A stretch of DNA of 45,985 nt from a virus. How positions within the stretch are numbered: position 1 is the stretch's first letter; every line of letters starts with the position of its first letter. This document shows, piece by piece, positions 4,680 through 39,103 of this stretch. The position numbers were made by a program, and so were the translations under genes. The notes under the pieces are model-generated. The model saw nothing but the letters and a program-made list of their open reading frames with translations. It was not told the origin of the DNA and ran no database searches. Location: positions 1-45,985 of the IMG/VR virus record IMGVR_UViG_3300030109_006257; one strand, given 5' to 3'.

Positions 4680-7102
4680 TGGCAACTCTCACACTCTGGG
4701 TCTAATACTGAACAAGCTTTAGGTGTTTTTTCTACTTCTTTTTGGGGGTCTATAGTTGACTTTTCCAGTCTAGTAGCAGCTTTACCTCTCAAGTAGTATG
4801 TTGTCTTTAGGCCCTTTTTCCAAGCATAGGTATATATATCATTCATATGTTTAAGGCTATCATATTTATTGTATAGGTTCAATGACTGCCCCATATCTAT
4901 CCATTTCTGTCTTCCAGCAGCAGCATCTATTAACGTTTTATAATCTATATCAAATGCGGTTTTGAATTCATTAATTATAGACTCATCTAATGAAAGTCTA
5001 GAAACATCTCCATCTACTCTTTTCAATGCCTCTACAAGCTCGTCGCACCAAATGTTATTCTTTTTAGCAATATTTACGAAATGTTCATTGACCATAGTAA
5101 ATTCACCACTGAGGGTGGAATATACATAGAGGCTGGAGTAGTCTGGCTCAATAGACTGTGAGCATCCTTGAATATAAGATATGGTAGCTGTTGGGGCAAT
5201 CGCCATTACGTTTGAGTTTCTCATACCGTATTGCTTGACCATTTCTCTTAGGTCTTTCCACTCTCCAATTGTTTCAAAGTCTTTTGCCTTATACTTGGCT
5301 TTACCTATTCTAGAGTTCATTAGATCACAGTAGGTATCTATTGGAAACTTGTTCTTATCCCAGTCAGACCCTCCGAATGAAGGGTATGCTCCTTTTTCCC
5401 TTGCTAGCTCGCAAGAAGTTTTTATTGCATGGTAAGATATGAATTCTTGGATTTTATCACATAGCTCCACAGCCTCCTGAGAGTCATAGTTAATGCCTAG
5501 CTTATGAAGAACATCGTGAGTTCCCATGACTCCTAATCCTACAGGTCTGTTTTTTATATTAGAAACTCTTGCCTCTTTAGTTGGGTAAAAGTTAAGGTCG
5601 ATGACATTGTCTAGCCCTCTAACAGCTACTTTGACTGTGTTTGCTAGTTCCTTCCAATCTAAAGTTCTTACTTTTAGATGATTAGATAAATTTATACTTG
5701 CTAGATTGCAGACTGCCGTTTCTCCTCTTTCGACAACTTCACCCTCATTGTATCTTGTAGGCTTAGTGTGCAACAATATCTCTGTGCAAAGATTAGAAGA
5801 CCTAACAACTCCCGCGTGCTTATTAGTATATCTAATATTAGAAGGGTCTTTGAAAGTAATCCAAGGATGTCCAGTCTCATAAAGAGCAGTCAATATTTTT
5901 TTCCATAATGTTTTGGCAGGTATTACTTTGTAAGAAGAAACATTTCCTAAGCGTGCCTCTTCTTTATATCTTTTATATGTCTTAGAGAATTCTTTGCCGT
6001 AGGTTGTATGTAAATCTGGACACTCTGATGGGTCAAATAGATACCAATCTTCTTCAGCTGCCACAGCAGACATGAAATCATCACATATCCAAGCTGCAGT
6101 ATTCATATCATGGCATCTTCTTCTGTCGTCACCAGTGTTTTTTCTTAAGTCCAGAAAATCCTCTATATCTAGATGCCAAACCTCTAAGTAAGCGCATCCA
6201 GCTCCTTTCCTTTTGCCTCCTTGATTTACTCCAACAAGAGTGTCATTAAATATTTTGAGCCAAGGAACAAGTCCGGTAGAGTTCCCATTGGTTCCTTTAA
6301 TGTAAGCTCCAGAGGCTCTGACGGAAGACCAATCAACACCTAGGCCTCCAGCGTATTTGGATAGTCTCGCCTGACCATGAATGGTCCCAAAAATTCCATC
6401 TATTGAGTCGTCCACTGTGCTCAAATAGCAAGAAGATAGTTGAGACCTGTTTGTCCCACTATTAAATAATGTGGGGGTAGATGGGCAATACTTGAATGTT
6501 GACATCTTATTATAGATTTCTAAGGCTGCTTCTTCTTTATTCTCCTCATCAAGACATAGACCCATAGCGGCCCTCATCCAAAACGACTGAGGTGTTTCTA
6601 CCCTTCTTCCTTCTATATGAACAAAGTACCTATCGTATAAGGTCTGTATTCCTAGATATTTAAATAGCCCATCTCTTTCAGGATGAAGCGCGTCTGCTAA
6701 AAACTCTAAGTCATAATCAAGTAGCTTAGGACTTAATCTGTCTCTCTTAACCATCAACTTTATATTTTTTATGAAGCTTGCCTTGTACTGCAGTCTAAGA
6801 GTTTGAGAGCATATACTCTCTTTAAAAACTTCCTTATAAAGATTATTAAGTAACATCCTAGCTGCTACGTAATTGTAGTTAGGTTCCTTTTCTATCTTTG
6901 ATCTAGCCGACATTATTAGAGCTTTATCTATCTCGGCGGTACTTATTTTGTTATAGAGCTGTATACTTGCATCTAAAACTATTTCGCTAACAGAAACATT
7001 ATCAAGTCCCTCGCAAGCCCTTTCTACACATTCATTAATCTTATCTAGGTTTATTTGCTCTAGGCGACCATTCCTCTTCTTAACTTTAATTTCTTTAATC
7101 AT
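4676..7102 (-). CDS. nrdA: Ribonucleotide reductase class I large subunit
   Basis: The catalytic subunit of ribonucleoside-diphosphate reductase, 808 residues. The N-terminal 90 residues form an ATP-cone for allosteric control (VKKRNGRLEQINLDKINE). The core has the active-site set: SSCYLS, NLCTEIL and AVCNLASINLSNH. The paired radical-transfer tyrosines follow near the C-terminus (TTYYLRG). The tail ends in a Cys pair (ECESCQ), the arm that re-reduces the active site through thioredoxin or glutaredoxin. It sits first in an nrdA-small gene-nrdB unit. A structured RNA candidate and TATAAT-like boxes lie upstream (7148-7322). It would supply dNTPs for phage replication. Confidence 0.96.
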   Translation of the reverse strand: MIKEIKVKKRNGRLEQINLDKINECVERACEGLDNVSVSEIVLDASIQLYNKISTAEIDKALIMSARSKIEKEPNYNYVAARMLLNNLYKEVFKESICSQTLRLQYKASFIKNIKLMVKRDRLSPKLLDYDLEFLADALHPERDGLFKYLGIQTLYDRYFVHIEGRRVETPQSFWMRAAMGLCLDEENKEEAALEIYNKMSTFKYCPSTPTLFNSGTNRSQLSSCYLSTVDDSIDGIFGTIHGQARLSKYAGGLGVDWSSVRASGAYIKGTNGNSTGLVPWLKIFNDTLVGVNQGGKRKGAGCAYLEVWHLDIEDFLDLRKNTGDDRRRCHDMNTAAWICDDFMSAVAAEEDWYLFDPSECPDLHTTYGKEFSKTYKRYKEEARLGNVSSYKVIPAKTLWKKILTALYETGHPWITFKDPSNIRYTNKHAGVVRSSNLCTEILLHTKPTRYNEGEVVERGETAVCNLASINLSNHLKVRTLDWKELANTVKVAVRGLDNVIDLNFYPTKEARVSNIKNRPVGLGVMGTHDVLHKLGINYDSQEAVELCDKIQEFISYHAIKTSCELAREKGAYPSFGGSDWDKNKFPIDTYCDLMNSRIGKAKYKAKDFETIGEWKDLREMVKQYGMRNSNVMAIAPTATISYIQGCSQSIEPDYSSLYVYSTLSGEFTMVNEHFVNIAKKNNIWCDELVEALKRVDGDVSRLSLDESIINEFKTAFDIDYKTLIDAAAGRQKWIDMGQSLNLYNKYDSLKHMNDIYTYAWKKGLKTTYYLRGKAATRLEKSTIDPQKEVEKTPKACSVLDPECESCQ

Positions 7103-7147
7103 TAATATAGCTCAATAGATGTATCATTATCCTAAGTAGAAATAAAA

Positions 7148-7260
7148 AAAGCGACACCTATAGCTTACATAACAGCCTTCTGTGTACCATTATAATATCC
7201 ACATACTTTCTTTACTATGAAGACGTAGGTAAGCACTCAAGACTAAAGCAGTGTCGCTTT
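7148..7260 (-). ncRNA. Structured RNA candidate upstream of nrdA
   Basis: Read on the minus strand, this 113-base stretch is closed by a perfect 10-bp stem: AAAGCGACAC (7260-7251) pairs with GTGTCGCTTT (7157-7148). A nested 6-bp stem follows, GCTTAC (7234-7229) with GTAAGC (7168-7163), and a small hairpin ACAG-AAGG-CTGT lies at 7172-7183. The 3' side runs into seven T residues (7150-7144), as in an intrinsic terminator. It could be a small RNA ending in its own terminator, or an nrd leader or attenuator. It has no tRNA T-arm and no long open frame. Folding is by eye only. Confidence 0.4.
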
Positions 7261-7316
7261 AACAAAAGATATCGCTGATAGCGATTATTCGTTCTTTATA
7301 ATCTTTAGTCTATCAT

Positions 7317-7327
7317 ATTATACACCT
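7317..7327 (-). promoter_or_regulatory. Putative -10-type promoter element (GAGGTG-TATAAT)
   Basis: TATAAT at 7322-7317 preceded by GAGGTG on the minus strand, with no convincing -35 box. It lies between the secreted-protein gene (stop 7365) and the structured RNA/nrd unit, so it could drive either. A second TATAAT-like box (7194-7189) lies inside the RNA candidate. The GG-before-TATAAT arrangement recurs at 8152, 11410, 14612 and 35046. Confidence 0.4.
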
Positions 7328-7364
7328 CGAAATGAGTTTTAGAAAATCAAATTATACTTTTTGA

Positions 7365-16225: not shown

Positions 16226-16693
16226 TTATAAACCTCTTATTTTGGTTTTAGTAAATTTAGAAGAATCCTTAATTAAATTACTTGAAGACTGAGTTTTTCC
16301 TCCTCCTACGTTGTATTGCAACTCTATACCTAGCCTTCCACATACTTCTTCTTCTGAGCTGACGCTACCCTTTTTCCTATCTCCACCATTACCAAATATC
16401 ATACCATCAAAATCATCTGAATCTTTATATAGGTAATACATGCTGATTAAAGAATTACATACGGTAGAGTCTTCATCATAAGATAAGTAGGCGTAATCCA
16501 CATCTTTTATTTTTGATACTATTCTAGCACGCTCTTTTTCATTCATAAAAGGAACAGAGCCCTTAAGCTCAACTTGGCTGTCATTATTAACAATCACTAT
16601 TAGATAGTCTCCAAGCTCTTTCGCAGACTCAATGTAATCAAGATGCCCACTGTGAATAGGATTGAAGTACCCAGATATAACCACATATTTCAT
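16226..16693 (-). CDS. Cytidylyltransferase-like nucleotidyltransferase
   Basis: A 155-residue protein of the HxGH nucleotidyltransferase superfamily. The core motif is GYFNPIHSGHLDYIESAKEL near the N-terminus. A second sugar- or nucleotide-binding block is MIFGNGGDRKKGS. It resembles the second domain of HldE (heptose-1-phosphate nucleotidyltransferase) and glycerol-3-phosphate cytidylyltransferases. With the adjacent HAD phosphatase and heptose-kinase-like gene, activation of a heptose or similar phosphate is the best guess. The start overlaps the HAD gene by 4 bases (ATGA). Confidence 0.75.
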   Translation of the reverse strand: MKYVVISGYFNPIHSGHLDYIESAKELGDYLIVIVNNDSQVELKGSVPFMNEKERARIVSKIKDVDYAYLSYDEDSTVCNSLISMYYLYKDSDDFDGMIFGNGGDRKKGSVSSEEEVCGRLGIELQYNVGGGKTQSSSNLIKDSSKFTKTKIRGL

Positions 16694-17034
16694 AGACTTA
16701 CTTCTCCTAACCCCTCGTCTCTTTTTATATTGATTGCAAACGCGGTCTCTTCTCCGCTAGGTCTCTTGTCATTTATTATAATTCTTTGCCCTTTGGAAAT
16801 GCCCATGATCAAAGTATCATAAGGTATTCCAAGTCTAGAGAGATCTTCTTTAGTCTTTTCTCTTAAGCTTTCTCTTCTAGCTGTCGTCAAAATTATTTTA
16901 TACTCTTTAGAGCACCATTCGTTCATCTTTTCTCTTACATTTGGTAATAAATTAGCGGGCTTTTGAGCTATGTCGCTGAATGTGCCCTGATGTTTGAAGA
17001 GAGTTCCGTCAATATCTACAAAAAGTGTTTTCAT
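16690..17034 (-). CDS. Small HAD-family phosphatase
   Basis: A 114-residue cap-less HAD protein. The nucleophile motif is DIDGTLFKH (Asp7, Asp9), motif II is ILTTARR, and the acid cluster is IIINDKRP. Such short HADs hydrolyse sugar phosphates. Between a GHMP kinase (17039-18007) and a nucleotidyltransferase it fits the phosphatase step of a heptose-7-phosphate to heptose-1-phosphate route (GmhB role), but this is inference from order. A polynucleotide phosphatase-type function cannot be excluded. Confidence 0.75.
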   Translation of the reverse strand: MKTLFVDIDGTLFKHQGTFSDIAQKPANLLPNVREKMNEWCSKEYKIILTTARRESLREKTKEDLSRLGIPYDTLIMGISKGQRIIINDKRPSGEETAFAINIKRDEGLGEVSL

Positions 17035-17038
17035 TTTA

Positions 17039-18007
17039 TTACCTATTTATTATCTGAGATCCTTGTTCATCTATACTAAAATCAATGTAATTATTCTTAT
17101 ATTTATCTTTTATAAGCTGTTTGCAATTTTGATCTTTCATTATTCCGAATATAAAGCCTGCTCTTCCTGCTCCTAGAAGCTTGCCTCCGATCATCCCATT
17201 ATTTTTTAAATCGGCATACAAGCTCTCAACATCACTTGAAGATATTGATTCTGATAATTTTTTCTTAGTGTTCCAACTTTTTTCAAGAAGTAGCCCAATA
17301 GAATTAATGTCCGAATCTAAAAAGCAATTATAGGCCTCTCGGGCAGTTTGTAAGATAGACTTTTTTTTATGTACATTAGATTCCCTACCTATGCTCTTTG
17401 CAACTTCGAAGGATCTTCTTGTCTTACCGGTATAGACAAGGACACTTCTAGAAATAAATTCCTCTTTGAATTCCTGAGTTACTGGCATAGGCTTTACCTC
17501 GAATTCTCCTTTTTGATTTATATCTATAGAATTCATTCCACCATAAGATGCCCATATTTGGTCCTGTATGCCTCCCGGCTCGTCGAGGTGAACCCTCTCT
17601 ATCTCTATGGCTATTTCTGCCAGCTCTTTTCTAGAACATTGCTTATCATTGAGAGCACAGATAGAATTTAAAAGACCTACTATAAAAGAAGAAGAAGACC
17701 CTGTACCAGTCTGTGAAGGCAGATCGCTAAAATGATTAAGCTCTAAACCAAAATCAATATCACAATAGTCAACAACCCCTTTTATGGCACTGTGCTCTAT
17801 ATCTTTATTAGAATTAAGTATCTCAGTTTTTGAATAGGTTAGCCTTGTTTTATATGGGAGTATTAAAGGCGTCTTCCTCGTAGATATGTATGTGTATTTG
17901 TTTAGGCAAAATCCAATTAAGAACGAACCATGCTTGGAGTAGAATGATTTATAATCGGTAGAACCTCCAAACAGAGAGACTCTAAAGGGAGTTTTTGATA
18001 TTATCAT
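17039..18007 (-). CDS. hddA: GHMP kinase, D-glycero-D-manno-heptose-7-phosphate kinase-like
   Basis: A 322-residue GHMP kinase. The N-terminal motif ISKTPFRVSLFGGSTDY is close to HddA, the ATP loop is QTGTGSSSSF (residues 99-108), and the C-terminal motif is GGKLLGAGRAGFIFG. HddA phosphorylates heptose 7-phosphate at C1 on the way to GDP-heptose in surface polysaccharides. A HAD phosphatase and a nucleotidyltransferase follow immediately. The start overlaps the preceding SDR stop as TAATG. No isomerase (GmhA) is seen, so the substrate may come from the host. Confidence 0.8.
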   Translation of the reverse strand: MIISKTPFRVSLFGGSTDYKSFYSKHGSFLIGFCLNKYTYISTRKTPLILPYKTRLTYSKTEILNSNKDIEHSAIKGVVDYCDIDFGLELNHFSDLPSQTGTGSSSSFIVGLLNSICALNDKQCSRKELAEIAIEIERVHLDEPGGIQDQIWASYGGMNSIDINQKGEFEVKPMPVTQEFKEEFISRSVLVYTGKTRRSFEVAKSIGRESNVHKKKSILQTAREAYNCFLDSDINSIGLLLEKSWNTKKKLSESISSSDVESLYADLKNNGMIGGKLLGAGRAGFIFGIMKDQNCKQLIKDKYKNNYIDFSIDEQGSQIINR

Positions 18008-18951
18008 TAGTAATTTTTACATCTCTCAATATCTGCTTGATCCATCAAGTCATAAAACCTATCCATTTCTTTTATACCATACTCAAGATCATACTTGCAA
18101 TTAAAGCCTAGGTTATATAGTTTCTGACTACTTACAATATAATCTCTTTTGTCTGGATCTGTTCTTGAATCATCTACTGAATAGTCAGAGCCAATGATTT
18201 CACATATCTCTTCTACCAAAGAAAGCTTGGTCATATTAATAGAGTCATTACCTAAATTGAAAACATTCCCAACCATTGATGGAAATCTTTTCATTGCAAA
18301 AATGAATGCTCTGCAAATATCTTTTACATGAATATAATTTCTTCTAAAATGCCCATCAAATACTGTTAAGTGCTTCTCTTCTCTAGCTACCTTTGTTAGA
18401 TTGTTTACTAACAAGTCAGTCCTAGGTCTTGGTGAAACACCGAATACAGTAGCTAGTCTAAAGACAACGGTGTTGTAATGACTTCTTAATAAATGATCTT
18501 CTGCCCCTTGCTTAGTATTAGCATACAATGATATTGGGTTTGAAGGAGTTTCTTCTGTACAGATATCTTCTCCTGTTGATCCATACCCTGAGTTTGTATT
18601 AGGATAAATGATCACCTGACTTTCTTGTGTAAGTTCGGTCAATTTCTTGAACCAATTTAAATTTGTCTCAGTAGTAATCTCTGGATATCTATCACAAAGA
18701 GGAGCCCCCACCAAGGCTGCTAATGGAATTATGTAATCAGCTTGCTTGATTGCTTCTACCAAATTTTCAGACCATTCATTCACATCTTCACGAAAAAAAT
18801 CCACGTTGTCTTTTAGTAAAGTCTCAGCGACCAAAGTACCTTGGTTATAGAATAGGTTATCAAATGCCGATACTTTATCTGCGAACTTACTTACTTCTCT
18901 AACTAAGCTTGAGCCTAAATAGCCAGCGGCTCCGGTAATTAAAACATTCAT
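18007..18951 (-). CDS. SDR nucleotide-sugar epimerase/dehydratase
   Basis: A 314-residue extended SDR. It has the NAD(P) site GAAGYLG (7-13), the acidic end of strand 2 (AFDN), a Ser/Thr stretch (NTNSGYGSTGE) and the catalytic YANTKQ (Y-x-x-x-K). The middle block NYIHVKDICRAFIFAM is typical of sugar epimerases. It lies between the DegT-type and GHMP-kinase genes with TAATG overlaps on both sides. The sugar is unknown; epimerisation or dehydration of an NDP-hexose is inferred. Confidence 0.88.
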   Translation of the reverse strand: MNVLITGAAGYLGSSLVREVSKFADKVSAFDNLFYNQGTLVAETLLKDNVDFFREDVNEWSENLVEAIKQADYIIPLAALVGAPLCDRYPEITTETNLNWFKKLTELTQESQVIIYPNTNSGYGSTGEDICTEETPSNPISLYANTKQGAEDHLLRSHYNTVVFRLATVFGVSPRPRTDLLVNNLTKVAREEKHLTVFDGHFRRNYIHVKDICRAFIFAMKRFPSMVGNVFNLGNDSINMTKLSLVEEICEIIGSDYSVDDSRTDPDKRDYIVSSQKLYNLGFNCKYDLEYGIKEMDRFYDLMDQADIERCKNY

Positions 18952-20081
18952 TATCTACAGGCCTCCAAGGCTTCTTTGATAGTTAATTCAATTCTTTGGA
19001 TATCTTCCTCTGATAGATGCTGATGACACCCAATGTGGATACCATTGTCTCCAACCCATTCAGCTTCAGGAAAATCTCCTAATGAGTATCCCATATCTGC
19101 AAAAGCCCTATGTTGAGTTGGTATGCATCCAAAGTTTCTCTTGTGATGGATATTATATTTGTCAAAGACTTGTTCTACTAGTTTTATTTTTCCTTCTTCT
19201 TTGCAGGTTATGCTAAATCCATGAGGACAGTTTTTGTTATTGACATCTTCTTCTGAGAAATATGCGACATCTTCATATCCTTCGGCGGCAGCTCGCATAC
19301 GCTTCATTGTTGCATGTCTTGTGTTAAATGTCTCCCAAAATACTCCGACCGCCTCTAGTCCAATACTTGCTTCAAGATCATTCATCTTTGAATTATATCC
19401 AACTCTTTGATGGTCAAAATAAATTGAATTGAAGGGTCTTCCGTGAGATCGACACGACGCTAATACGTCTGCCAAATGATCATCATTTGCAGATACCATT
19501 CCTCCTTCACCACAACAGACTAGATGAGCAATGTAATAACTATACACAGACATGTCGCCCCAATGGCCAATATATTTACCTTTGTATGTTGCTCCGTGTG
19601 CTTCGCAGGCATCTTCAATGACAATTAAGTTATATTCTTCTGCAAGTTCACAGATAGCATCCATTTCTGCCGGACGACCCATTGTATGAACAGGCATGAT
19701 TGCGACAGTCTTAGGGGTAATAGCTTCTTCTATTTTTGTTTCATCAATATTAAGAGTCTCTTTTTTAACATCAACAAATACTGGTGTAAGTCCAGCGGCT
19801 CGAACAGCATTAGATGTAGCAATAAAAGATAACGCTGGTACAATGACTTCATCCCCGCGCTTTGCGTCTGCAATATCGTACAAAGCAAGGCAAGATGCTA
19901 TCACTGCATCAGTGCCAGAGCTCATAGCGACACTTCTTTTATAGTTAAAGATTTTAGACCATTCTTTTTCAAGCTGCTTAACTTTTGGCCCACCAGATGC
20001 CCAGTTAGTATCACATACATGCATCAGATTTTTTCTGGCAACTTCTCCAATAACAAGCTCTCCAAACTCTATTCTTTTCAT
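18951..20081 (-). CDS. DegT-family PLP protein with His in place of the lysine (3-dehydratase-like)
   Basis: A 376-residue DegT/DnrJ/EryC1/StrS protein. The PLP ring contact is Asp157 (IEDACEAHGA). In ordinary aminotransferases the PLP lysine lies in a block like SFxxxK-GEGG; here the block is SYYIAHLVCCGEGG and residue 186 is His. The same swap is known in ColD and in E1/RfbH 3-dehydratases, which use PLP or PMP to remove the 3-hydroxyl of NDP-4-keto sugars. I therefore call it dehydratase-like, not an aminotransferase. It overlaps the SDR (18007-18951) and the thiamine enzyme (20078-20608), pointing to a 3-deoxy or branched sugar route. Confidence 0.8.
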   Translation of the reverse strand: MKRIEFGELVIGEVARKNLMHVCDTNWASGGPKVKQLEKEWSKIFNYKRSVAMSSGTDAVIASCLALYDIADAKRGDEVIVPALSFIATSNAVRAAGLTPVFVDVKKETLNIDETKIEEAITPKTVAIMPVHTMGRPAEMDAICELAEEYNLIVIEDACEAHGATYKGKYIGHWGDMSVYSYYIAHLVCCGEGGMVSANDDHLADVLASCRSHGRPFNSIYFDHQRVGYNSKMNDLEASIGLEAVGVFWETFNTRHATMKRMRAAAEGYEDVAYFSEEDVNNKNCPHGFSITCKEEGKIKLVEQVFDKYNIHHKRNFGCIPTQHRAFADMGYSLGDFPEAEWVGDNGIHIGCHQHLSEEDIQRIELTIKEALEACR

Positions 20082-20608
20082 CTATATAAATCTCCATGTT
20101 CTACAATCAATGTGGAAACGCCGTCTTCTCTGTCCAATGCTTTCTTGTACTCTCCAAATATCTTTTGAGGATATAGCAACTCAACAACATTTATATTATC
20201 GCAAGATGATTTGAAAGCGCTTGTGAAGTTCTGTTTATGTTGATGTCCGGGGTCTAATGGGTACTGTGATCCGACAACTGCTTTCATGATTACTTTTGGC
20301 TTACTCTGGCCGCAGGACATCGCATCCCACTTATCTAGATGATTGACTATCTGATTCATTGCAAGAATTATAAAGTTCATTCTGGGATACAGAGAGACTG
20401 GTATATACCCTTCAAGAGCTAGACCTAGGGCAAATCCGGCCTGAAACTCTTCGGCTACTGGAAGTTCCAGCTTCTTACTGTCATCAAAGGCTTTTACTTG
20501 ATGAGTCAGTGCAGTCCCCTTATACTCTACAGCCTGTCCTATAAAGATAGTCTTGTCATGTGCATTCAGGTATTCCATACCCTTATTTACTTCATCTATA
20601 TACTTCAT
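20078..20608 (-). CDS. Thiamine-diphosphate enzyme, beta-type (Pyr) subunit, minimal
   Basis: A 176-residue protein with the fold of the pyrimidine-binding part of E1-beta/transketolase. The ThDP-activating Glu is in LPVAEEFQAGFALGLALEG (Glu53 by spacing). Later landmarks are VSLYPRMNFIILAMNQI and PKVIMKAVVGS. Ordinary E1-beta subunits are about 325 residues and carry an extra C-terminal domain; that is missing here. It pairs with the alpha-type gene at 20611-21228, 2 bases upstream, and overlaps the DegT gene as ATGA. The substrate is unknown; a role in sugar building is inferred from the neighbourhood. Confidence 0.75.
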   Translation of the reverse strand: MKYIDEVNKGMEYLNAHDKTIFIGQAVEYKGTALTHQVKAFDDSKKLELPVAEEFQAGFALGLALEGYIPVSLYPRMNFIILAMNQIVNHLDKWDAMSCGQSKPKVIMKAVVGSQYPLDPGHQHKQNFTSAFKSSCDNINVVELLYPQKIFGEYKKALDREDGVSTLIVEHGDLYR

Positions 20609-20610
20609 AT

Positions 20611-21228
20611 TTAAAACTCCACAAAAACGCCGGTTCCAGAATGGGGGTAAGACATTTTATAATTATAATATATAATCTTTACATTCTGTGCATTATATTT
20701 ACATATTAAATCTAACAGAGAATTAACTAAATCTTCTGTCTTGATCCCACAAGTTGGTTCTGTCTCAGTGCCTACAGATTTTCCATTGTCTTCTATTACC
20801 CAAGTTATCGGCAAGTCATGCCCTATAGAATATCTTATTGACTCATTGGCAATACCTGTCTGAAAACTCATGTCTCCTAGAAAGCAATATACTCTTCTGT
20901 CTTTATCTTCTTTTTTTAGTGACCAAGCAGTACCTGTCGCTATAGGAGCGATACCTCCAACTATTGCGGAACTATAAAAATTATACTCCGGATAATGAAG
21001 AGTTATAGATCTTCCTTCTAAGATATCTTGCTTGACTATTTCTGAAGGAACACCTTTCAACAAGGAATGTAGATGGCTAGCCCAAGTAGAAAACACATAG
21101 TCATCAGTGTTTACTTGTTCAAATATTTTTGTCAGCACCTCTTCATTTCCATCTCTCAAATGGACTGGAGCTTTTATTATGCCACTTTCGTACAGTTCCG
21201 CTATTTCATTTTCAAATTCTTTAAGCAT
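20611..21228 (-). CDS. Thiamine-diphosphate enzyme, alpha-type (PP) subunit, minimal
   Basis: A 205-residue protein matching the diphosphate-binding half of E1-alpha/transketolase. The ThDP motif is visible as GDMSFQTG (G118-D119) followed 30 residues later by EDNGKSVGT (N148). Preceding landmarks are ALxxGGIAPIATGTA-like (IVGGIAPIATGTAW). E1-alpha proteins are usually about 330 residues, so this is a reduced version. With 20078-20608 it would make a two-subunit ThDP enzyme that could move a two- or three-carbon ketol or acyl unit. Such pairs also occur in O-antigen gene clusters. Confidence 0.75.
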   Translation of the reverse strand: MLKEFENEIAELYESGIIKAPVHLRDGNEEVLTKIFEQVNTDDYVFSTWASHLHSLLKGVPSEIVKQDILEGRSITLHYPEYNFYSSAIVGGIAPIATGTAWSLKKEDKDRRVYCFLGDMSFQTGIANESIRYSIGHDLPITWVIEDNGKSVGTETEPTCGIKTEDLVNSLLDLICKYNAQNVKIIYYNYKMSYPHSGTGVFVEF

Positions 21229-22468
21229 TTACTAATTCCTCTTCAAAAGAACTTGTCCCATTATCTAAAATATTTGTAAACTGATTGAAGAATGAATGCT
21301 CCTTAATCCAACTTACTTGTTTAGATAGAACTTTATTAATTGTATCTTCGTCTTTAGTAACTTTGTCATAAACTGTTCTTATGGTTTCTATATCATCGTA
21401 TTCATAAATTGGGAATACGTCTTTGTAAAATATTTTATTCCAATAGAAATCATCATATATTAAAATAGACCCCATCAGAGGGGCTAAAAAGTCTTTTACA
21501 CCCTTCATACATCTTTGTAGATGTGTCTTTAGTTTATGTTCTTGATAGAAGGATGGCATGACAATTTTTGTCTCACGGCATTTGGGTCTTGTACAATTAG
21601 GATTACCACACCTGTGCCAATAGCCCGATTTACGCATGTCATCATCTCCGGCCCAAGCGGAGGAGGTGTTGCCCAAATGTGTCTTAATAGAAAGGTAATC
21701 AGATAAAGTTTCTATGACATTTTTATTTGCTAGGTGTTGCGTGTCTGACGCTCCTAATAGGGTATTGTCAAACGTTCTGTTCAGATATCTTTTTAATCTC
21801 GATCTATATGTATTACCACTTCTAAATGTCATGAAGGCACCTATTTCTGTAGACCTCTCAATATACTGATTAGAAGTCTTCGAATTTTGGCTAATTCTTT
21901 CCTCGCAGATCTCCAACATTTTTTTACATGGGGTAGATATGTAAAATTGTGCATTGACACCCAGAGATTCTCTTAACATTTTCACTTTTCTAGGCTCATT
22001 CGTCATATATAAATCCGCTAACTCTATATTTTCTATACAGAACTCATGAGGAAACATATTGCTTAGATAATAGAAATCGTCCCATGCAAGACAAGCAATT
22101 CTACACTCCGGATCTAGTAGCTTTAAGTCTAATAGTGTAACATAGCCTGCATATAAAACCCAAGGCTCAATGATATAGAGTACTCTCCCGAGCTTACTTA
22201 TACGAGAATCAAATTCTTCATAAAGATTAAATCCTGCATGTAGTCTTACAGAGCTATATTGTATGTCATATTTTTTACAAACTTCTGGCATGTCTAGATA
22301 AAAGCTCATCTCAGAGTTTAGTGTGTATCTGCCCTGCTGCTGAGCGTTTACGCCATGAAAGCTATTGTCTTGCAAAATAGATAAGTTATCCCTAACTGGA
22401 TCTACGTTATCGGATATAACTCTAAAACAGACTATTGTATCAATGTCTTCTAGTAAATGTTCTTTCAT
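21221..22468 (-). CDS. Probable GT-B-type glycosyltransferase-like protein with Cys cluster
   Basis: A 415-residue protein with a late-domain block resembling GT-B donor sites (KGVKDFLAPLMGSILIYDDF, then VFPIYEYDDIETI), preceded by an unusual Cys-rich segment (CGNPNCTRPKC, about residues 288-298) that could bind zinc. The N-terminal part (IDTIVCFRVISD) is less clear. No strong nucleotide-sugar motif is visible, so function is inferred from the sugar locus. It overlaps the RmlC-like gene (4 bases) and the ThDP alpha gene (8 bases). Confidence 0.5.
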   Translation of the reverse strand: MKEHLLEDIDTIVCFRVISDNVDPVRDNLSILQDNSFHGVNAQQQGRYTLNSEMSFYLDMPEVCKKYDIQYSSVRLHAGFNLYEEFDSRISKLGRVLYIIEPWVLYAGYVTLLDLKLLDPECRIACLAWDDFYYLSNMFPHEFCIENIELADLYMTNEPRKVKMLRESLGVNAQFYISTPCKKMLEICEERISQNSKTSNQYIERSTEIGAFMTFRSGNTYRSRLKRYLNRTFDNTLLGASDTQHLANKNVIETLSDYLSIKTHLGNTSSAWAGDDDMRKSGYWHRCGNPNCTRPKCRETKIVMPSFYQEHKLKTHLQRCMKGVKDFLAPLMGSILIYDDFYWNKIFYKDVFPIYEYDDIETIRTVYDKVTKDEDTINKVLSKQVSWIKEHSFFNQFTNILDNGTSSFEEELVNA

Positions 22469-22947
22469 ATATCTAATTCTTTTAGGCTCTTTGCTTCTTT
22501 GTCTCTAACTGATAGAATTGGGCACTTAGTTTCCCAACTGGCATTTATTGTCTCGTCTTTATAGCTCACAGTCCATTGTTCTTCTGGACCAGAATACGGC
22601 TCACTCCACTTATAGTACAAAACACACTCCTCGCTTAAGCATTCATGAGCGTTTAGATAATAAGGAGGTGCTAGTACCTGCAATTTGTTATCATCACTTA
22701 ATAACAATTCTTTTTTCATAGACTTTTTCATGTCCCAAAAGACTAACTTTAGAGATCCATATATACAAGTGAAGAGCTTCCAAGTCTTACTGTCTCCGTG
22801 AAATCCTCTGATAGTTCCTTTAGTAGACCTAGAAAATCTATCTTCAACAAATTTTATATCATATTCGCCATTCTTGTAGCATGGATATACCTCTCCTCGG
22901 CAATCTTTATAGGTGATTAGATTCTTTGCATATAAGGTCATTGGCAA
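22465..22947 (-). CDS. RmlC-like sugar epimerase (cupin)
   Basis: A 160-residue cupin related to dTDP-4-dehydrorhamnose 3,5-epimerase. The block DRFSRSTKGTIRGFHGD contains the conserved RG-x-H (His catalytic base), followed by KLFTCIYGSLKLVFWD. The C-terminal part is diverged from canonical RmlC. It probably epimerises an NDP-4-keto sugar made by a dehydratase such as the RmlB-like protein at 29096. It overlaps its neighbours by 4 and 10 bases. Confidence 0.75.
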   Translation of the reverse strand: MPMTLYAKNLITYKDCRGEVYPCYKNGEYDIKFVEDRFSRSTKGTIRGFHGDSKTWKLFTCIYGSLKLVFWDMKKSMKKELLLSDDNKLQVLAPPYYLNAHECLSEECVLYYKWSEPYSGPEEQWTVSYKDETINASWETKCPILSVRDKEAKSLKELDI

Positions 22948-23909
22948 GCGCTGCCCAAGTAATTATTTTCATACCAATCGCATGTCTTTTTAAGACCAGA
23001 CTCTAAAGATGTCTTAGGAGCCCAGCCTAGCTTGTCTTTAGCTTTAGTACAGTCAAGTATTACCGTTGTTGGAATGTCTGGTTTGGTTGTATCAAACTTC
23101 ACATTCAAATCTTTGTCTTGTAAATTCATAATTGTTTCGGCTAGCATAAGTATAGAGAATGCCTGACCAGCACCGCAATTGAACAGCTCATACTTAGACT
23201 CTTGATTGTTAATACAACTATCAATAAACTCAATAAGATCATCAATATAGATGACATCTCTAGATGCTTTGCCCGTTCCCCATATTTCAAACTCATCTTC
23301 AGCGTTTGTAACTTTGTTCACAAAGGCCGGAACTACATGGCATTTGTCTAAATCAAATTTATCATATGGGCCATAAACATTTGAATGTCTAAAAGCTGTG
23401 AATTTTGTATTGCCTATTCTAGAGTAGAAGTCACACATCTTTTCACTGAAGACTTTCATATTTCCTACGCCAAAATAGTTATGATATATTTCTTCATCGG
23501 CGCTCCAGCTGTCTTCAGACTGTGGTTCGTCTTTTGGCTGATACATAACTGTACAGCTAGGAAATAGCAGATGTCCTACATCATTGAGAGTAGCCTCTCT
23601 AAAAATCCAAGAGTTCATGACTGCATTGTCTGTTACATGTATATATGGTCTTTCTACTACATCTTTAGAGCCAGTTGTTGTAGCTGCAGCCTGCAACACT
23701 ACATCATAGTGCCGACTTTCGAAAAGGTTCTTTACCTCTCTTTCAATCCTTAAATCTGCGACTACATATTCTACGCCTTCTATCTTTCCATAATCAGGCT
23801 CAGAAGAACTGAATAAAACTGCGGTAATATCATAAGAGTCTTTGAAATATTCTAAAGCATTTCTTCCTATGAAGCCATTGGCTCCGCATACTAGCATTGT
23901 CTTTTTCAT
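22938..23909 (-). CDS. SDR epimerase/reductase (GDP-fucose synthase-like), atypical YxxxK
   Basis: A 323-residue extended SDR with GANGFIGRNAL as NAD(P) site and VADLR as the acidic turn. The later block RDVIYIDDLIEFIDSC and GWAPKTSLESGLKKT at the C-terminus match sugar epimerases or GDP-fucose synthase. The catalytic Tyr-Lys is not at the normal spacing: the region reads NYFGVGNMKVFSEKM, where Val stands four residues before the Lys and the nearest Tyr is seven before. A shifted motif or altered chemistry is possible. The next SDR (24609-25607) shows a similar departure. Confidence 0.75.
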   Translation of the reverse strand: MKKTMLVCGANGFIGRNALEYFKDSYDITAVLFSSSEPDYGKIEGVEYVVADLRIEREVKNLFESRHYDVVLQAAATTTGSKDVVERPYIHVTDNAVMNSWIFREATLNDVGHLLFPSCTVMYQPKDEPQSEDSWSADEEIYHNYFGVGNMKVFSEKMCDFYSRIGNTKFTAFRHSNVYGPYDKFDLDKCHVVPAFVNKVTNAEDEFEIWGTGKASRDVIYIDDLIEFIDSCINNQESKYELFNCGAGQAFSILMLAETIMNLQDKDLNVKFDTTKPDIPTTVILDCTKAKDKLGWAPKTSLESGLKKTCDWYENNYLGSACQ

Positions 23910-24608: not shown

Positions 24609-25607
24609 TTATACGCCTATTAAATTGGTATAGTCTGCTTTTAAGAATGGGTCATGCCTGCCCTCATAAGGATTGTTTGCAATGAACCAATCAAATGTTT
24701 CTTTTAATCCCTCTTCTAAAGAAACTGTTGACTCAAATCCATATCCTCTCAGTCTCGATACATCTGCAACTCTAAGGGAGTCTCCCTTTGGTTTCGACAT
24801 ATCATTTGTTATTTCTAAATCCTTACCAGAAACTTTAACTAAAGTCTCTATTAGTTCTTTTACGGTAACGCACTTCCCGTTTCCGACATTTACTGGCTCA
24901 GTAATTTTGTTTTCTACAAGGAACATTGCAGCTCTCGCTATGTCTCTTGCATGGATTATATCTCTTCCGGCAGAACCATCTCCCCAGATTTCAACGCTAT
25001 CTCTAGCTTCGACAACTTTTCTAATTAAAGAAGGAACAAGAGTAGACGTTGCAAGGTTGAAGTTATCATACTTACCATAGATATTCACTGGCTTCATTAT
25101 AGAGATATTCTGCTCTCCATACTGCTGTTGATATGCATCTATCTGAACTTCTCCCATTCGCTTTGCCCATCCAGCAAACCAGTCGTTTGGAGAAGGGTTT
25201 TTATCCCATAATTCACTTTCCCTAAAAATCTCAGACTGTCCGTAAGTTCCAACTGTGCTAGTGTAGATGCCTCCTCCCATATCAGAGGTATACATAGCTG
25301 CTATCATGCTTGTATTTAATTGTAGTATGCTTGTAAAGAAAGTGTATTGCTTGGTCTTCGTGATTACAGGAGAGCCCTTGATTCCAGCAATGTGGAAGAC
25401 AAAGTCTTTTCCTTCACATGCTTCCATGGCATTTTTGAGAACACGCAAGTCTGTGTTTACATACTCTACATCCCACTCTTTATCAAAATTGTTGTTGTCT
25501 AATGATGCCGAAGTTACATTTGCCCCCTCTTTGACAAGAAGCTCTACCAGTTCTCGACCCACTAGGCCTGTTCCGCCGGTCACTAAAATATTTTTTCCGT
25601 TATACAT
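24609..25607 (-). CDS. SDR epimerase/dehydratase, atypical catalytic motif
   Basis: A 332-residue extended SDR. The NAD(P) site is GGTGLVGRELV and the strand-5 block is TSTVGTYGQSE. The catalytic region reads PNDWFAGWAKRMGE, where the expected Tyr four residues before Lys is Ala. The mid-region RDIIHARDIARAAMFLVENK and GYGFESTVSLEEGLKET match nucleotide-sugar epimerases. It pairs with the similar SDR at 22938. The reaction is uncertain; a reductase or epimerase role is inferred. Confidence 0.75.
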   Translation of the reverse strand: MYNGKNILVTGGTGLVGRELVELLVKEGANVTSASLDNNNFDKEWDVEYVNTDLRVLKNAMEACEGKDFVFHIAGIKGSPVITKTKQYTFFTSILQLNTSMIAAMYTSDMGGGIYTSTVGTYGQSEIFRESELWDKNPSPNDWFAGWAKRMGEVQIDAYQQQYGEQNISIMKPVNIYGKYDNFNLATSTLVPSLIRKVVEARDSVEIWGDGSAGRDIIHARDIARAAMFLVENKITEPVNVGNGKCVTVKELIETLVKVSGKDLEITNDMSKPKGDSLRVADVSRLRGYGFESTVSLEEGLKETFDWFIANNPYEGRHDPFLKADYTNLIGV

Positions 25608-26559: not shown

Positions 26560-27308
26560 GCGTTAGTTCCTCTAATGTTCATATCTATACTATATTCTTC
26601 AAATAAGTCCATTAGTTCTGAAAAGTACTCTAGGATATTCCACTTGCCCTTTACAACGGCTGTGGCTATATGCGGAAAGACGCTTGAGTCATAATGGAAT
26701 ATTCCTCGCTTCTTCTCTGAGTCATGGTATTGCCATCCTTTTGTAATTCCTATCCTTCGGCATATCTCTGAACCTCCCGGCTCCTGTTGCATTCTACCAT
26801 TAGTAGATGGAGACTCTTTAAATATTTTTTTGAAGTCCTTAGTCCTCCACACACTAGCTTGCTGTGCAAAAAAATTACCACTGGCTGGGTCAATTACAAA
26901 TAACTTTTCGTAACTCTGGTCTCTTGAGACATCTTCTGGGCCTTTGGTAAGTTTAACAAAGCTGTAGTCCGAATTGTCCAGAGCATTTATTATATAGTTT
27001 AGTTTTTCTTTATTCACGAAATCAAAAAGAACATAGTCTTCACTTGTGTATAGAATGTACTCTTCTTGTATTTTTTCCAAGCAAGATAATAATTGATTTC
27101 TATATGTGTCATTGTCATCATAAAGAAGTTTTATAAAAGAGTCTGGAATTATCCCGACAGTATGGTTTTGCTCTTCAAACTCATCATCAACACATACATA
27201 CTTTGTTAAATCATTAGAGGGAAAAAATGTGTCTAGCCTTCCGAAATATGGTGCCCAGACATCAGAGTATCTCGAATTAGTATCTACCAGCAAAGCTAAT
27301 GAGCTCAT
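26556..27308 (-). CDS. Possible GT-A-like glycosyltransferase or sugar-related protein
   Basis: A 250-residue protein whose central block EEYILYTSEDYVLFDFV resembles the acidic donor site of some GT-A enzymes, and whose C-terminal block GRMQQEPGGSEICRRIG recurs in glycosyltransferases of phage sugar loci. No DxD motif is certain. The function rests mainly on position between a DegT-like gene and a GT-B gene. Confidence 0.45.
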   Translation of the reverse strand: MSSLALLVDTNSRYSDVWAPYFGRLDTFFPSNDLTKYVCVDDEFEEQNHTVGIIPDSFIKLLYDDNDTYRNQLLSCLEKIQEEYILYTSEDYVLFDFVNKEKLNYIINALDNSDYSFVKLTKGPEDVSRDQSYEKLFVIDPASGNFFAQQASVWRTKDFKKIFKESPSTNGRMQQEPGGSEICRRIGITKGWQYHDSEKKRGIFHYDSSVFPHIATAVVKGKWNILEYFSELMDLFEEYSIDMNIRGTNA

Positions 27309-27910
27309 TGAAATATCCTAAACTCAGTAAGGTCTCTGTACGGTGGATTCTCTATTTGATCTTCTGCATTCTGAGGATAATCACTTAGAAGAATTAGACC
27401 TCGTGCGGCCTGTTCTGGGGTCATATACATATTCCATCCTTGCTCGGCTATAACATCTTCATGATAGCAAATATTCTCTGCTCTACCTTCGTACCTCATT
27501 CTTTTTATATGCTCAACAGCTTCTTTGCTGTCAGTAAGTATCATTCCTCCTTTGCCTATTTTCAAAGGTTTTTTATGATGAAAAGACAGACACATTAAAG
27601 AACCGGGAATATACATATTAGAAGTCAATCTTTTTGCTGAGTCATATATTGGAAAGGGTTTAATCTGATAGATGCCTTTCCAGTCAACATCTGCAAACTT
27701 CAACTTACCTCCAGCCTGCATAATAGACTGCGGCACAGATAGATATGTTCTCTTTGGGATTGTTACGGACTGTCCTTTTACGTTAAAGTGCTTACAGGCC
27801 AAAAAGATTGCATTGGTACAGCTATTCGTTGCAACCGCGTATGGTGCTCCCGTATAGTGCGCTATCTCTTCCTCAAACCATTTCACAATTTCAAAGGGGT
27901 TCCTAAGCAT
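27305..27910 (-). CDS. DegT-family aminotransferase, short form (lysine kept)
   Basis: I start it at ATG 27910 (MLRNPFEIVKWFEEEIAHYT), which matches the usual DegT N-terminus; a start at 27958 would overlap the previous gene by 56 bases. The 201-residue protein has the SCTNAIFLACKHF block, and the PLP Lys region CLSFHHKKPLKIGKGGM with Lys kept. It ends at about half the normal length (usual about 370), so much of the small domain is missing. It may be a reduced enzyme or a degraded copy. It overlaps the GNAT gene, suggesting amino-sugar formation then acylation. Confidence 0.65.
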   Translation of the reverse strand: MLRNPFEIVKWFEEEIAHYTGAPYAVATNSCTNAIFLACKHFNVKGQSVTIPKRTYLSVPQSIMQAGGKLKFADVDWKGIYQIKPFPIYDSAKRLTSNMYIPGSLMCLSFHHKKPLKIGKGGMILTDSKEAVEHIKRMRYEGRAENICYHEDVIAEQGWNMYMTPEQAARGLILLSDYPQNAEDQIENPPYRDLTEFRIFQ

Positions 27911-28292
27911 CTTCTCTTTCCAATAGATAGTATTTCTTCTTAAATCCGCAAGACTCAAAAAGCCTTATGCTTGCCTCATTATCTAATTTTACTTTAGCAA
28001 ATGAGTTTGGTCTAAATCCCATAAGCTCATTTATCATAAATTTAGCTATGCCTTTTTTCTGATGGTCTGAATGTGTTGCCACTCTTATATCTTTATTTAT
28101 TTCACCAACCCATCCTACAGGCTCTCCATCTTCTAGTGCTATGTAGTAGTCTTGGCAGTGGCTCTCCATATATTTGTAGTGGTCTTTTACCTGTATAGTC
28201 TCTTGTTCTATGAAACCTTCTCGCAAAGAATTTCTAAGCTCAAGAACAAAGTCCCAATACTTTTTTTCGCATCTTACTAGCTCTAACCCCAT
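27903..28292 (-). CDS. GNAT-family acetyltransferase
   Basis: A 129-residue GNAT protein, starting at ATG 28292 after AGGAAG. The acetyl-CoA site block is THSDHQKKGIAKFMINELMG, with the later FAKVKLDNEASIRLFESCGF. It resembles sugar N-acetyltransferases of the RimJ/PseH type. Next to the DegT-type aminotransferase it would acetylate an amino sugar. It overlaps its neighbours by 8 and 10 bases. Confidence 0.8.
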   Translation of the reverse strand: MGLELVRCEKKYWDFVLELRNSLREGFIEQETIQVKDHYKYMESHCQDYYIALEDGEPVGWVGEINKDIRVATHSDHQKKGIAKFMINELMGFRPNSFAKVKLDNEASIRLFESCGFKKKYYLLEREDA

Positions 28293-29095: not shown

Positions 29096-29986
29096 CTAAA
29101 ACCACCTATATAGACCACTTTCATGTTTTGGAGTCCAGCCAAGACCTCTTAACTTCTTAGATGAGACTGCATACCTTACATCCTGACCCCATCTGTTTGC
29201 GACAAACTGGATAGAACTTTCATCTTTACCCAGCCAAGATATAATTGTTTTGACAACATCCAAATTTACCATGTAATTTTCTGAAGCAATGTTAAATGTT
29301 TCGTTTTTTATTCCGCTTTCAATTATAGCCATTATTCCAGAGACATTGTCTTTTACATATGTCCAGTCTCTGACATATGATCCATCTCCGTGAACAGGTA
29401 TCTTCTTATCTTGCATAAGAGAGCTGATACATTTAGGTATGAGTTTTTCTTCATACTGTCTTGGGCCGTAGTTGTTACTACTTCTAGTTATAATATAATC
29501 AATACCATACGTTCTTGAATACGCCTTGACTAGCATTTCAGCACCGGCTTTAGTAGCTGAATATGGATTGCTTGGCGAAAGAGCATCTTCCTCTAAGAAT
29601 AACCCCTCTTCTCTATCTCCATAGACTTCATCTGTACTAATATGAAAGAAAAGAGGTCTTTCATATGCGGGCTTTCCCCTAACAAGCTCTAGCAAGTTCC
29701 AGACCCCAACTAGACTACTATCTACGAAAGGTTTAGAGTCCCTTATAGAGTTATCCACATGGCTTTCTGCAGCAAAGTTGACGATCATATCGCAAGTTGG
29801 GATATGAATCAATGTACTTATGTCTGCTATTTGTAGCTTATAATTTGGATCTTTATCAGCAGGAAGAAGTTCGTAAGAAGCATAGCCCATCTTATCAATA
29901 TCATAGACACTATGTCCTAATGAGAGAGCTTCGTCTACGAAGTGACTACCTATAAAACCTCTACCGCCGGTTACTACAAACTTCAT
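29096..29986 (-). CDS. rmlB: dTDP-glucose 4,6-dehydratase-like SDR
   Basis: A 296-residue SDR with GGRGFIGSHFVDEA as NAD site, the RmlB-specific blocks HISTDEVYGDREEG and PYSATKAGAEMLVKAY (catalytic Tyr-Lys), and ITRSSNNYGPRQYEEKLIPK. RmlB dehydrates dTDP-glucose to the 4-keto-6-deoxy form, the entry to many deoxy sugars. At 296 residues it is shorter than the usual 350. No RmlA or RmlD is recognised. A 4-keto product could feed the RmlC-like and DegT-type enzymes. Confidence 0.88.
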   Translation of the reverse strand: MKFVVTGGRGFIGSHFVDEALSLGHSVYDIDKMGYASYELLPADKDPNYKLQIADISTLIHIPTCDMIVNFAAESHVDNSIRDSKPFVDSSLVGVWNLLELVRGKPAYERPLFFHISTDEVYGDREEGLFLEEDALSPSNPYSATKAGAEMLVKAYSRTYGIDYIITRSSNNYGPRQYEEKLIPKCISSLMQDKKIPVHGDGSYVRDWTYVKDNVSGIMAIIESGIKNETFNIASENYMVNLDVVKTIISWLGKDESSIQFVANRWGQDVRYAVSSKKLRGLGWTPKHESGLYRWF

Positions 29987-37511: not shown

Positions 37512-37759
37512 TTTTCTATCTCTGATTTTAGCTCTTTAAGCATTGGTCTAACGACCGCCTCAACCTCATCTTCAAACTCATTAGACATAGCTTGAAGAAA
37601 CATCTCAATTCTCATAGCATTATCGCTACTTAACATAGCGTTGTATTCCATGAAACGCTCTAATCCTTTGACTGTCTTATTTAATTTGTAATTACTATAT
37701 CCTAAGCATCCTATTCCTACCGCTAGTGTAACCAAGCAGAGTATGTTTAGCTTATTCAT
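37484..37759 (-). CDS. Single-span membrane protein (91 aa)
   Basis: I start it at ATG 37759 (MNKLNILCLVTLAVGIGCLG); a TTG 9 bases upstream is an alternative. One N-terminal membrane span is followed by a helical acidic tail (KGLERFMEYNAMLSSDNAMR). The ATG overlaps the dipeptidase stop. The function is unknown. Confidence 0.55.
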   Translation of the reverse strand: MNKLNILCLVTLAVGIGCLGYSNYKLNKTVKGLERFMEYNAMLSSDNAMRIEMFLQAMSNEFEDEVEAVVRPMLKELKSEIEKCSTPTEQN

Positions 37760-38982
37760 TTTTTCCAACCATTTCGGATTAGTCTTAAAGAATTGTCTCC
37801 AAGAAATTTTCGTATAGTATGATCATCCCATCCAACCGCCTTGAGGTGAGATGTGATTCTGGGCAACTGACCCATGTGTACAATTTCATCTGGAGGATCA
37901 GTGAAGCCATCAAAGTCTGTCCCTATAGCTGGCACATCTGATCCCGCTACATTTATAATATGGTCTATTGTCTGTTCTATATATTTTAATCCAAGCTGAG
38001 TGTCTACAGGAGAGATCCAATAGTTCATAAAGATTATTCCAGCAACTCCTCCATGATTGCCAAGCCACTTTAGTTCCCAGTCTTGTAAGTTATAAGTTAG
38101 CCTATTTACTTCAAAGGCTCCAACATGACTCGCAAAGATACACTCTTCAGCATGGTGATGTTCGGCAATTTCGTAAATTCTCTTTCTGGCTTTCAGGGTA
38201 CAGTGAGATATATCTAACAGCATCCCTAGCTCAAACATCTTTTCGACAACTGCTTCTCCAATATCCGTTAGACTTTTGTCTTCATCCCATTTACTGAGTA
38301 GACTTTCCCAACTTCCGTGACTGAGGGCGTATTCAGGCCACGGGAATACTGGCGGAGCGCAATCGTTCTCATAGAAGTGAGCTAGGGTTAGATATGCAAC
38401 GCCCTTATTATAAAAATGTTCTAGGTTAGACAGTGCTGTATTTAATTTTTCTTCATGAGTAACATCGACATCATGTGGTTTTGGTTGTGCTGAGTCTGCT
38501 TGTAGGGAGTGCGCCCCTTCGACTGAGTGAATCAATGCCAAGCTCCCATCGTCAAGCGCATTATCTAAATCGAAAACAGACTTACAAACAGCAATCTTTC
38601 TATTGTTTTGATTCTTATTCCATTCAGTTACCTGAGATTCCATTTCATCTAGGACATTCATAGTAGCATCAAAATAAGATGCCTCATATATTTCTTTACG
38701 AACATTAGGAGCAAGTTTAATTAACCACTTAGCGAGAGACATATCCTCATACCATCCTCCTTCAGGAATGAAGGCCGTTGATAACATAACATCAAGGCCA
38801 CCCTCCATCAGTCTAGGGAAGGTTGTTCTGTTTGCTAAAGGCCAGAATTTCCTTTTGAAAAGACCCATCAAGAACTTTTCTTTAGACGAACCCATATTGC
38901 GATGAAAGATTGATGCCTTTATTGCAGAGTGGCAGTGTAAGTCCACAACAGTTGAGTCAAAGTGAAGTTCCTTAGATGCCAT
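37756..38982 (-). CDS. Peptidase M19 (membrane dipeptidase) homologue
   Basis: A 408-residue protein of the renal-dipeptidase family, starting at 38982 after AGAGGA. Zinc and catalytic blocks are VVDLHCHSAI, ALIHSVEGAHSL, YLTLAHFYEN, MLLDISHCTLKAR and IFASHVGAF. GTDFDGFTDPP and the C-terminal FLGDNSLRLI follow. Family enzymes cleave dipeptides, including D-amino-acid and cell-wall-derived ones. I know of few phage examples. It may salvage amino acids or alter wall peptides. No signal peptide is visible, so it is likely cytoplasmic. Confidence 0.92.
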   Translation of the reverse strand: MASKELHFDSTVVDLHCHSAIKASIFHRNMGSSKEKFLMGLFKRKFWPLANRTTFPRLMEGGLDVMLSTAFIPEGGWYEDMSLAKWLIKLAPNVRKEIYEASYFDATMNVLDEMESQVTEWNKNQNNRKIAVCKSVFDLDNALDDGSLALIHSVEGAHSLQADSAQPKPHDVDVTHEEKLNTALSNLEHFYNKGVAYLTLAHFYENDCAPPVFPWPEYALSHGSWESLLSKWDEDKSLTDIGEAVVEKMFELGMLLDISHCTLKARKRIYEIAEHHHAEECIFASHVGAFEVNRLTYNLQDWELKWLGNHGGVAGIIFMNYWISPVDTQLGLKYIEQTIDHIINVAGSDVPAIGTDFDGFTDPPDEIVHMGQLPRITSHLKAVGWDDHTIRKFLGDNSLRLIRNGWKK

Positions 38983-38992
38983 GTTTATTCCT

Positions 38993-39103
38993 CTAATATA
39001 CAAGTTTGGAAATTGCCAGCGTTAGCCATAAAGCAATCGCTATTGGAGCCATAAATATTATAGCCGTTACAATACATTTATTAAATTTGTCTGAGTTATC
39101 CAT
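38993..39103 (-). CDS. Small single-span membrane peptide (36 aa)
   Basis: A 36-codon frame whose ATG lies within the end of the RuvB gene (8-base overlap). The product MDNSDKFNKCIVTAIIFMAP continues hydrophobic (IAIALWLTLAISKLVY). One membrane span is predicted. The function is unknown. Confidence 0.5.
   Translation of the reverse strand: MDNSDKFNKCIVTAIIFMAPIAIALWLTLAISKLVY

Follow-up and report, generated by a model that had tools for sequence, protein, structure and literature searches.

The DNA analysed here, referred to as the window, covers positions 1 to 45,985 of the IMG/VR virus record IMGVR_UViG_3300030109_006257 and encodes a compact, two-subunit thiamine diphosphate (ThDP) enzyme next to a DegT-family protein. 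From the predicted folds, the active-site residues and the recurrent neighbours of these genes, we conclude that they probably form the core of a nucleoside diphosphate (NDP)-sugar pathway leading to a 3-deoxy sugar with a two-carbon branch. The two ThDP subunits have folds and conserved active-site residues of the pyruvate dehydrogenase (PDH) E1 component, the DegT protein carries a histidine in place of the lysine that binds pyridoxal 5'-phosphate (PLP) in aminotransferases, and the genes recur together in phages and bacteria.

From these features we infer the substrate, donor, order of steps, product and chemistry as follows. A heptose phosphate would be activated by an HddA-like kinase, a HAD-family phosphatase and a nucleotidyltransferase, and a 4,6-dehydratase would yield a 4-keto-6-deoxy sugar. 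The DegT protein, with His186 and PLP or pyridoxamine 5'-phosphate (PMP), would then take off the C3 hydroxyl in a ColD-like reaction, giving an NDP-3-deoxy-4-keto sugar. The ThDP alpha/beta enzyme would decarboxylate a 2-oxo acid, probably pyruvate, and add the acyl anion to the C4 ketone, after which short-chain dehydrogenases/reductases (SDRs) may reduce or epimerise the branched product and a glycosyltransferase may place it in a surface or virion glycan. For an operon that combines a His-type DegT with an E1-like pair, the simplest reading would be 3-dehydration followed by C4 branching. A preliminary description, made from the sequence, had proposed removal of a 3-hydroxyl and subsequent addition of a carbon unit; this remains the reading best supported by context, with the addition that the activation genes resemble a heptose-type rather than a hexose-type set. 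In a fuller version, which we advance tentatively, the pathway is native to Nitrospirota and other bacteria, has been acquired by many phages, and yields a 4-C-branched 3,6-dideoxy-heptose (nine carbons) by means of a split ThDP ligase reduced to Pyr and PP domains.

The kinds of enzyme are known; as far as a limited search of open-access papers shows, the novel features are the compact E1-like form with two chains, the link of this form to a His-type DegT, and its spread over phages and Nitrospirota. If the proposed pathway is correct, a class of branched sugars is predicted in Nitrospirota and in phage-modified glycans, and the pair would be a very small ThDP C-C ligase, made of two chains and coming with a matching 3-dehydratase. 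Such a ligase could help to define which parts of E1 ketone ligation requires, and could serve in tertiary-alcohol biocatalysis. It would also provide a testable function for the ThDP pair in hundreds of viral contigs, and for its fused relatives, whose annotations go no further than 'transketolase central region' or unknown.

The core genes of the window are:
20611..21228, minus strand: alpha subunit of the ThDP enzyme, 205 amino acids (aa), PP domain; PF00676, 1.1e-10; GD118-119, N148, H52 and H196
20078..20608, minus strand: beta subunit of the ThDP enzyme, 176 aa, with the Pyr domain alone; PF02779, 7.9e-8; Glu53 and QH123-124
18951..20081, minus strand: His-type DegT (His186), 376 aa, candidate NDP-4-keto-sugar 3-dehydratase; PF01041, 2.4e-87

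The coupling of these genes by overlap that had been described earlier holds: the DegT start and the beta stop share 4 nt (ATGA), and the gap between alpha and beta is 2 nt. Alpha further overlaps by 8 nt with the gene upstream of it, and DegT shares 1 nt with the SDR gene that follows it (18007..18951).

The compact ThDP pair
AlphaFold2 models of both subunits, built without the initial methionine, had mean predicted local distance difference test scores of 92.1 (alpha) and 90.7 (beta). The nearest fold for both in Foldseek and VIA searches was PDH E1, spanning nearly the whole of each subunit: VIA-align placed alpha on residues 42-267 of 1ni4_A (Z 20.1, 192 residues aligned, root-mean-square deviation 2.0) and beta on residues 4-177 of 1ni4_B (Z 21.9, 168 residues aligned, deviation 2.1). 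Alpha corresponds to human E1alpha residues about 42-267 and beta to E1beta 4-177, with the C-terminal parts of both gone, so that each chain reads as an E1 subunit stopped early. A search for Transketolase_C (PF02780) across the contig gave no match, and the same search was positive in all 14 control genomes. The reduced subunits of 176 and 205 residues in the preliminary description are therefore borne out, with exact coordinates and lengths. An ordinary PDH E1 was ruled out, because the C-terminal domain is absent and no E2-like gene was seen among the genes scanned.

Across 31 relatives, GD118-119 (Asp nearly invariant) and N148 of alpha are conserved, and they align to the corresponding E1 residues. 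Across 27 relatives, QH123-124 of beta and its invariant Glu53 are likewise conserved; Glu53 aligns to the 'PisE' glutamate of E1beta, and the invariant QH123-124 falls at the E1beta AQHSQ stretch in a single-sequence alignment. The relatives in these alignments share 43-74% identity. Alpha has the E1alpha PP fold with the GD..N ThDP-Mg motif, and beta the E1beta Pyr fold with the catalytic Glu; these are the residues on which the ThDP assignment had been staked at the outset. Near the alpha C-terminus an invariant PH195-196 presumably sits where E1alpha has its loop His, as judged from the aligned range.

That the two subunits are merely left over from an E1 dehydrogenase, degenerate or moonlighting and devoid of ThDP chemistry, is very improbable. 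Large deletions relative to E1 and the lack of an E2-like gene among those scanned would suit such a remnant, but the ThDP and catalytic residues are (nearly) invariant across the 27-31 relatives, the predicted folds are of high confidence, and the operon has been kept in chromosomes. The pair could also be a decarboxylase of a 2-oxo acid, or of a related compound, that feeds an aldehyde or acyl group to a sugar side chain rather than a ring ligase. Two-domain ThDP decarboxylases, such as ComD/ComE and AzcB/AzcC, typically do without a transketolase C-domain. AzcB/AzcC, an alpha-imino acid decarboxylase (PDB 9u8q/9u8r/9u8s), is a two-subunit ThDP enzyme of similar size (subunits of about 167 aa) and is among the structural matches of beta (TM 0.61, E about 1e-5). 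However, it is distant in sequence and fold (12% identity), the pair is far nearer to PDH E1 in both respects (Z about 20-22), and a ketosugar context with a 3-dehydratase is the known setting of ThDP ligases, which makes the side-chain decarboxylase unlikely.

Among known systems, the alphaKADH2 enzymes (AviB1/AviB2, Pau11/Pau12 and KbDH-alpha/beta, with EvdU5/EvdS3 proposed) resemble the pair in having two PDH E1-related subunits in sugar pathways (PMC12247030, PMC4753412, PMC10338323). These two-subunit enzymes have been proposed, and KbDH has been shown in vitro, to add pyruvate-derived C2 units to ketones (PMC12247030, PMC4753412), and two-subunit ThDP enzymes provide a precedent for C2 branching of keto sugars (PMC12247030). 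Length and context set the window pair apart: its alpha ends near E1alpha 267 and its beta near E1beta 177, without the C-terminal domain, and its settings are phages and glycan clusters of Gram-negative type that include a His-type DegT, whereas the alphaKADH2 enzymes belong to actinomycete antibiotic clusters. Yersiniose, a product of the O-antigen pathway of Yersinia and Pectobacterium, arises when the ThDP enzyme YerE attaches a C2 unit to a deoxy-keto sugar (PMC12247030, PMC4753412). In place of the two short E1-like chains found here, YerE has one chain and is a flavoprotein of the acetolactate-synthase/decarboxylase type. The yersiniose logic of 3-dehydratase, ThDP ligase and SDR reductase would be shared with the module.

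The open-access papers searched, which form a limited test, contained no description of this gene combination, and to that extent the earlier remark that no described phage pathway of this kind was known stands. A related ThDP protein is, however, already annotated in the cyanophages S-SM2 (SSM2_198) and P-TIM68 (AIR93527, 'transketolase central region') and in PHROG 34187. It contains homologous alpha and beta parts and lies in a phage sugar cluster, but differs in that both are fused in one open reading frame (ORF) of 402 aa and the neighbours are a zinc alcohol dehydrogenase and HldE-type kinase/nucleotidyltransferase genes, with no His-type DegT in the stretch examined.

The His-type DegT protein
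In the window DegT, the column of the PLP lysine is occupied by His186, in YSYYIAHLVCCGEGG, where aminotransferases have Lys; the residue lies within ..SYYIAHLVCCGEGG, which aligns to the ColD stretch SSFYSHHIATMEGG. The alignments confirm the ColD-like histidine claimed in the preliminary description. A Lys-type aminotransferase identity was ruled out by the clear His186.

A tree of 32 DegT rows separated 27 His-type rows from 5 Lys-type rows (split 100/98). Inside the His set the window protein groups with five other phage proteins, and the set also holds an RfbH-like group and a ColD-like group, the latter with the cellular members. All three sub-branches (window type, ColD-like and RfbH-like) accompany the same ThDP pair, and none of the three Lys-type DegTs found within 8 kb of an alpha belongs to the His clade. 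In the tree, some DegT2 proteins of viruses branch from within the cellular members, which is consistent with transfer.

The best NCBIfam model for the window DegT is RfbH (2.2e-62, under its equivalog cut-off), and the protein falls short of the curated RfbH family (PRK15407, 211 bits against a cut-off of 423). The Fe-S cysteine pattern C-X57-C-X-C-X7-C of the RfbH/E1 [2Fe-2S] 3-dehydratases was absent in the window DegT, but those RfbH-like relatives that were examined lacked it too, so that its absence is uninformative. Among solved structures, ColD comes closest to the cellular and majority DegT proteins, as for the DegT of a SAR86 genome (1.5e-55). ColD-type enzymes and a Campylobacter jejuni enzyme use PLP and glutamate to remove the C3 hydroxyl from GDP-4-keto-6-deoxy sugars, the latter acting on GDP-heptose; this GDP-6-deoxy-4-keto-heptose C3-dehydratase is 62-67% identical to ColD-type enzymes (PMC10440746). 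The window protein shares with ColD the DegT fold and the His for Lys, and differs from these enzymes in forming its own branch and in having a ThDP partner, which is not described for them.

A second, short DegT-family ORF of 217 aa is present at 27305-27958. Its two Pfam stretches skip profile positions 97-162, the Lys-type SFHHKKPLKIGKGG is retained, and phage relatives exist (208 aa in locus L004).

Occurrence in phages and bacteria
Of the 296 viral contigs in which a profile scan detected an alpha relative, 80 were retained, and dereplication gave 28 unfused alpha clusters with full flanks. Because the clusters share ancestry, their counts cannot be treated as independent trials. A beta gene was called in 27 of the 28, and a His-type DegT within 8 kb in about 26 (25 by script, plus locus L039, whose DegT was missed by the script's pattern and is His-type by alignment). 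An SDR like that at 18007 accompanies 25 clusters, a sugar kinase of the GHMP or PfkB/HldE type 23, a B12-radical-SAM protein 14 and an RmlC-like epimerase 11. When 15 viral records were searched whole, the sole DegT (E <= 1e-15) adjoined the ThDP pair in 12.

The module is not phage-specific. It matched in 14 of 295 genomes in a sample of the phylum Nitrospirota, 13 at full strength and one (L137) more weakly and in the fused form, and in 2 of 369 genomes of the class of the SAR86 genome; it is present in SAR86 and in gammaproteobacterial metagenome-assembled genomes. The Nitrospirota operon runs B12-radical-SAM, HddA-like kinase, GDP-fucose-synthase-like SDR (1.5e-117), alpha, beta, His-type DegT, HddC-like nucleotidyltransferase (7.4e-50) and SDR; in some regions, overlapping frames kept alpha, beta or DegT from being called. 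In the one Nitrospirota locus checked (L133), Wzm/Wzt export, GT2 and sulfotransferase genes lie beside the operon. The B12-binding radical SAM proteins (L133:5948-7504 and relatives; L027:5358-6974) have HpnJ and BchE as best NCBIfam models, far under cut-off.

A plasmid search with a cellular alpha gave matches that were all below 60% identity, the best rows at about 30-35%, with the compact family not recognised among them; the best matches were annotated, where annotated at all, as E1 alpha. An Acinetobacter 'phage' match was rejected as an acetoin-dehydrogenase locus with an ordinary E1. Locus L138 also encodes, some 1.6 kb away from its compact pair, a further transketolase-type chain of the ordinary kind, which has both a Pyr and a C-terminal domain (L138:6101-7099). 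The fused alpha-beta ThDP protein (L137:9101-10372, with L137:8030-9076 and 5957-7339; also L024 and L025) occurs with a zinc alcohol dehydrogenase and an HldE-type kinase, and seems to represent a second pathway type.

The activated sugar and the neighbouring genes
The remaining annotated genes of the cluster are:
18007..18951, minus strand: SDR (TNSGYG..YANTK), candidate branch-ketone reductase or epimerase; profile match and motif
17039..18007, minus strand: GHMP kinase, HddA-like; best NCBIfam family 5.3e-37, under its cut-off
16690..17034, minus strand: small HAD-family phosphatase, putative GmhB-like role; profile matches
16226..16693, minus strand: cytidylyltransferase-like nucleotidyltransferase resembling the HldE C-domain; TIGR02199 7.1e-15, under cut-off
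21221..22468, minus strand: 415 aa protein immediately upstream of alpha; no Pfam or NCBIfam match
22465..22947, minus strand: RmlC-like sugar epimerase; Pfam match
22938..23909, minus strand: GDP-fucose-synthase-like SDR; NF047922 3.8e-39
24609..25607, minus strand: GDP-fucose-synthase-like SDR; NF047922 6.8e-46
29096..29986, minus strand: NDP-sugar 4,6-dehydratase, possible source of the 4-keto substrate; TIGR01181 3.3e-94; STDEVYG motif

Heptose families are the best matches of the window kinase, HAD protein and nucleotidyltransferase, well under their cut-offs, and as a set these genes look most like heptose activation rather than hexose activation. In relatives, GmhA-like, HddA-like and GMD-like genes lie near the pair in L029, which is a SAR86 locus, and in L138, most of them under equivalog cut-offs, and L029 also has an HddC-like gene near the pair. 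For L029, L138 and L133, the families that match best are of GmhA, HddA or HddC type, under cut-offs, and the HldE protein of L137, a locus with the fused ThDP form, has a kinase domain above the heptose-kinase cut-off. These partners point to an NDP-heptose.

Several observations weigh against the proposed pathway. The last 10-15 residues of alpha, where the second catalytic His would be expected, are modelled with lower confidence. The window DegT clade falls outside the ColD+RfbH grouping, and the PDB matches of the protein list Lys-type aminotransferases first and ColD lower, so that its assignment as a 3-dehydratase rests on His186, clade and context. The ThDP pair occurs without a His-type DegT in L023 and L138, as does the fused form in L024, L025 and L137; the ThDP enzyme therefore probably takes other keto sugars too, and its reaction would not strictly need a 3-deoxy substrate. 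The window genes do not pass the heptose equivalog cut-offs (HddA, 128 of 600 bits; rfaE_dom_II, 55 of 181.5), and a search for SIS (GmhA) in the 15 viral records gave two matches and none in the window contig, so that the searches do not establish a full heptose set for the window. Finally, the window 4,6-dehydratase is RmlB-like (dTDP-glucose) and would suit a hexose.

The position of the DegT clade and its aminotransferase matches could mean that the His-type DegT carries out another PMP-dependent, or a PLP-independent, reaction in place of 3-dehydration. We consider this quite unlikely in view of the His for Lys, of RfbH as the best NCBIfam model, and of the slot that the window DegT occupies, which is that of ColD-like enzymes in sister loci.

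The RmlB-like 4,6-dehydratase bears on the alternative of a yersiniose-like route, with 3-dehydration and C2 branching on a dTDP-, CDP- or GDP-hexose. On this reading, the kinase and nucleotidyltransferase of heptose type would work on a different sugar of the cluster. The strength of the RmlB-like match and the RmlC-like epimerases in the viral clusters are in keeping with this route, and both yersiniose and hexose-built alphaKADH2 branched sugars are known (PMC12247030, PMC4753412). On the other side stand the GmhA/HddA/HddC/GMD-type sets beside the pair in SAR86 and L138, and the HldE kinase domain near the fused form in L137. Weighing the heptose-type partners of relatives against the sub-cut-off matches and the RmlB-like dehydratase of the window, we regard a heptose as the probable sugar and the hexose route as possible but distinctly less likely.

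The 415 aa protein encoded upstream of alpha had no Pfam or NCBIfam matches, and relatives of it were seen only in L006 and L034. Elsewhere in this phage contig, a membrane dipeptidase gene (Peptidase_M19) is present at 37756-39003, with a RuvB gene nearby (39096-40022).

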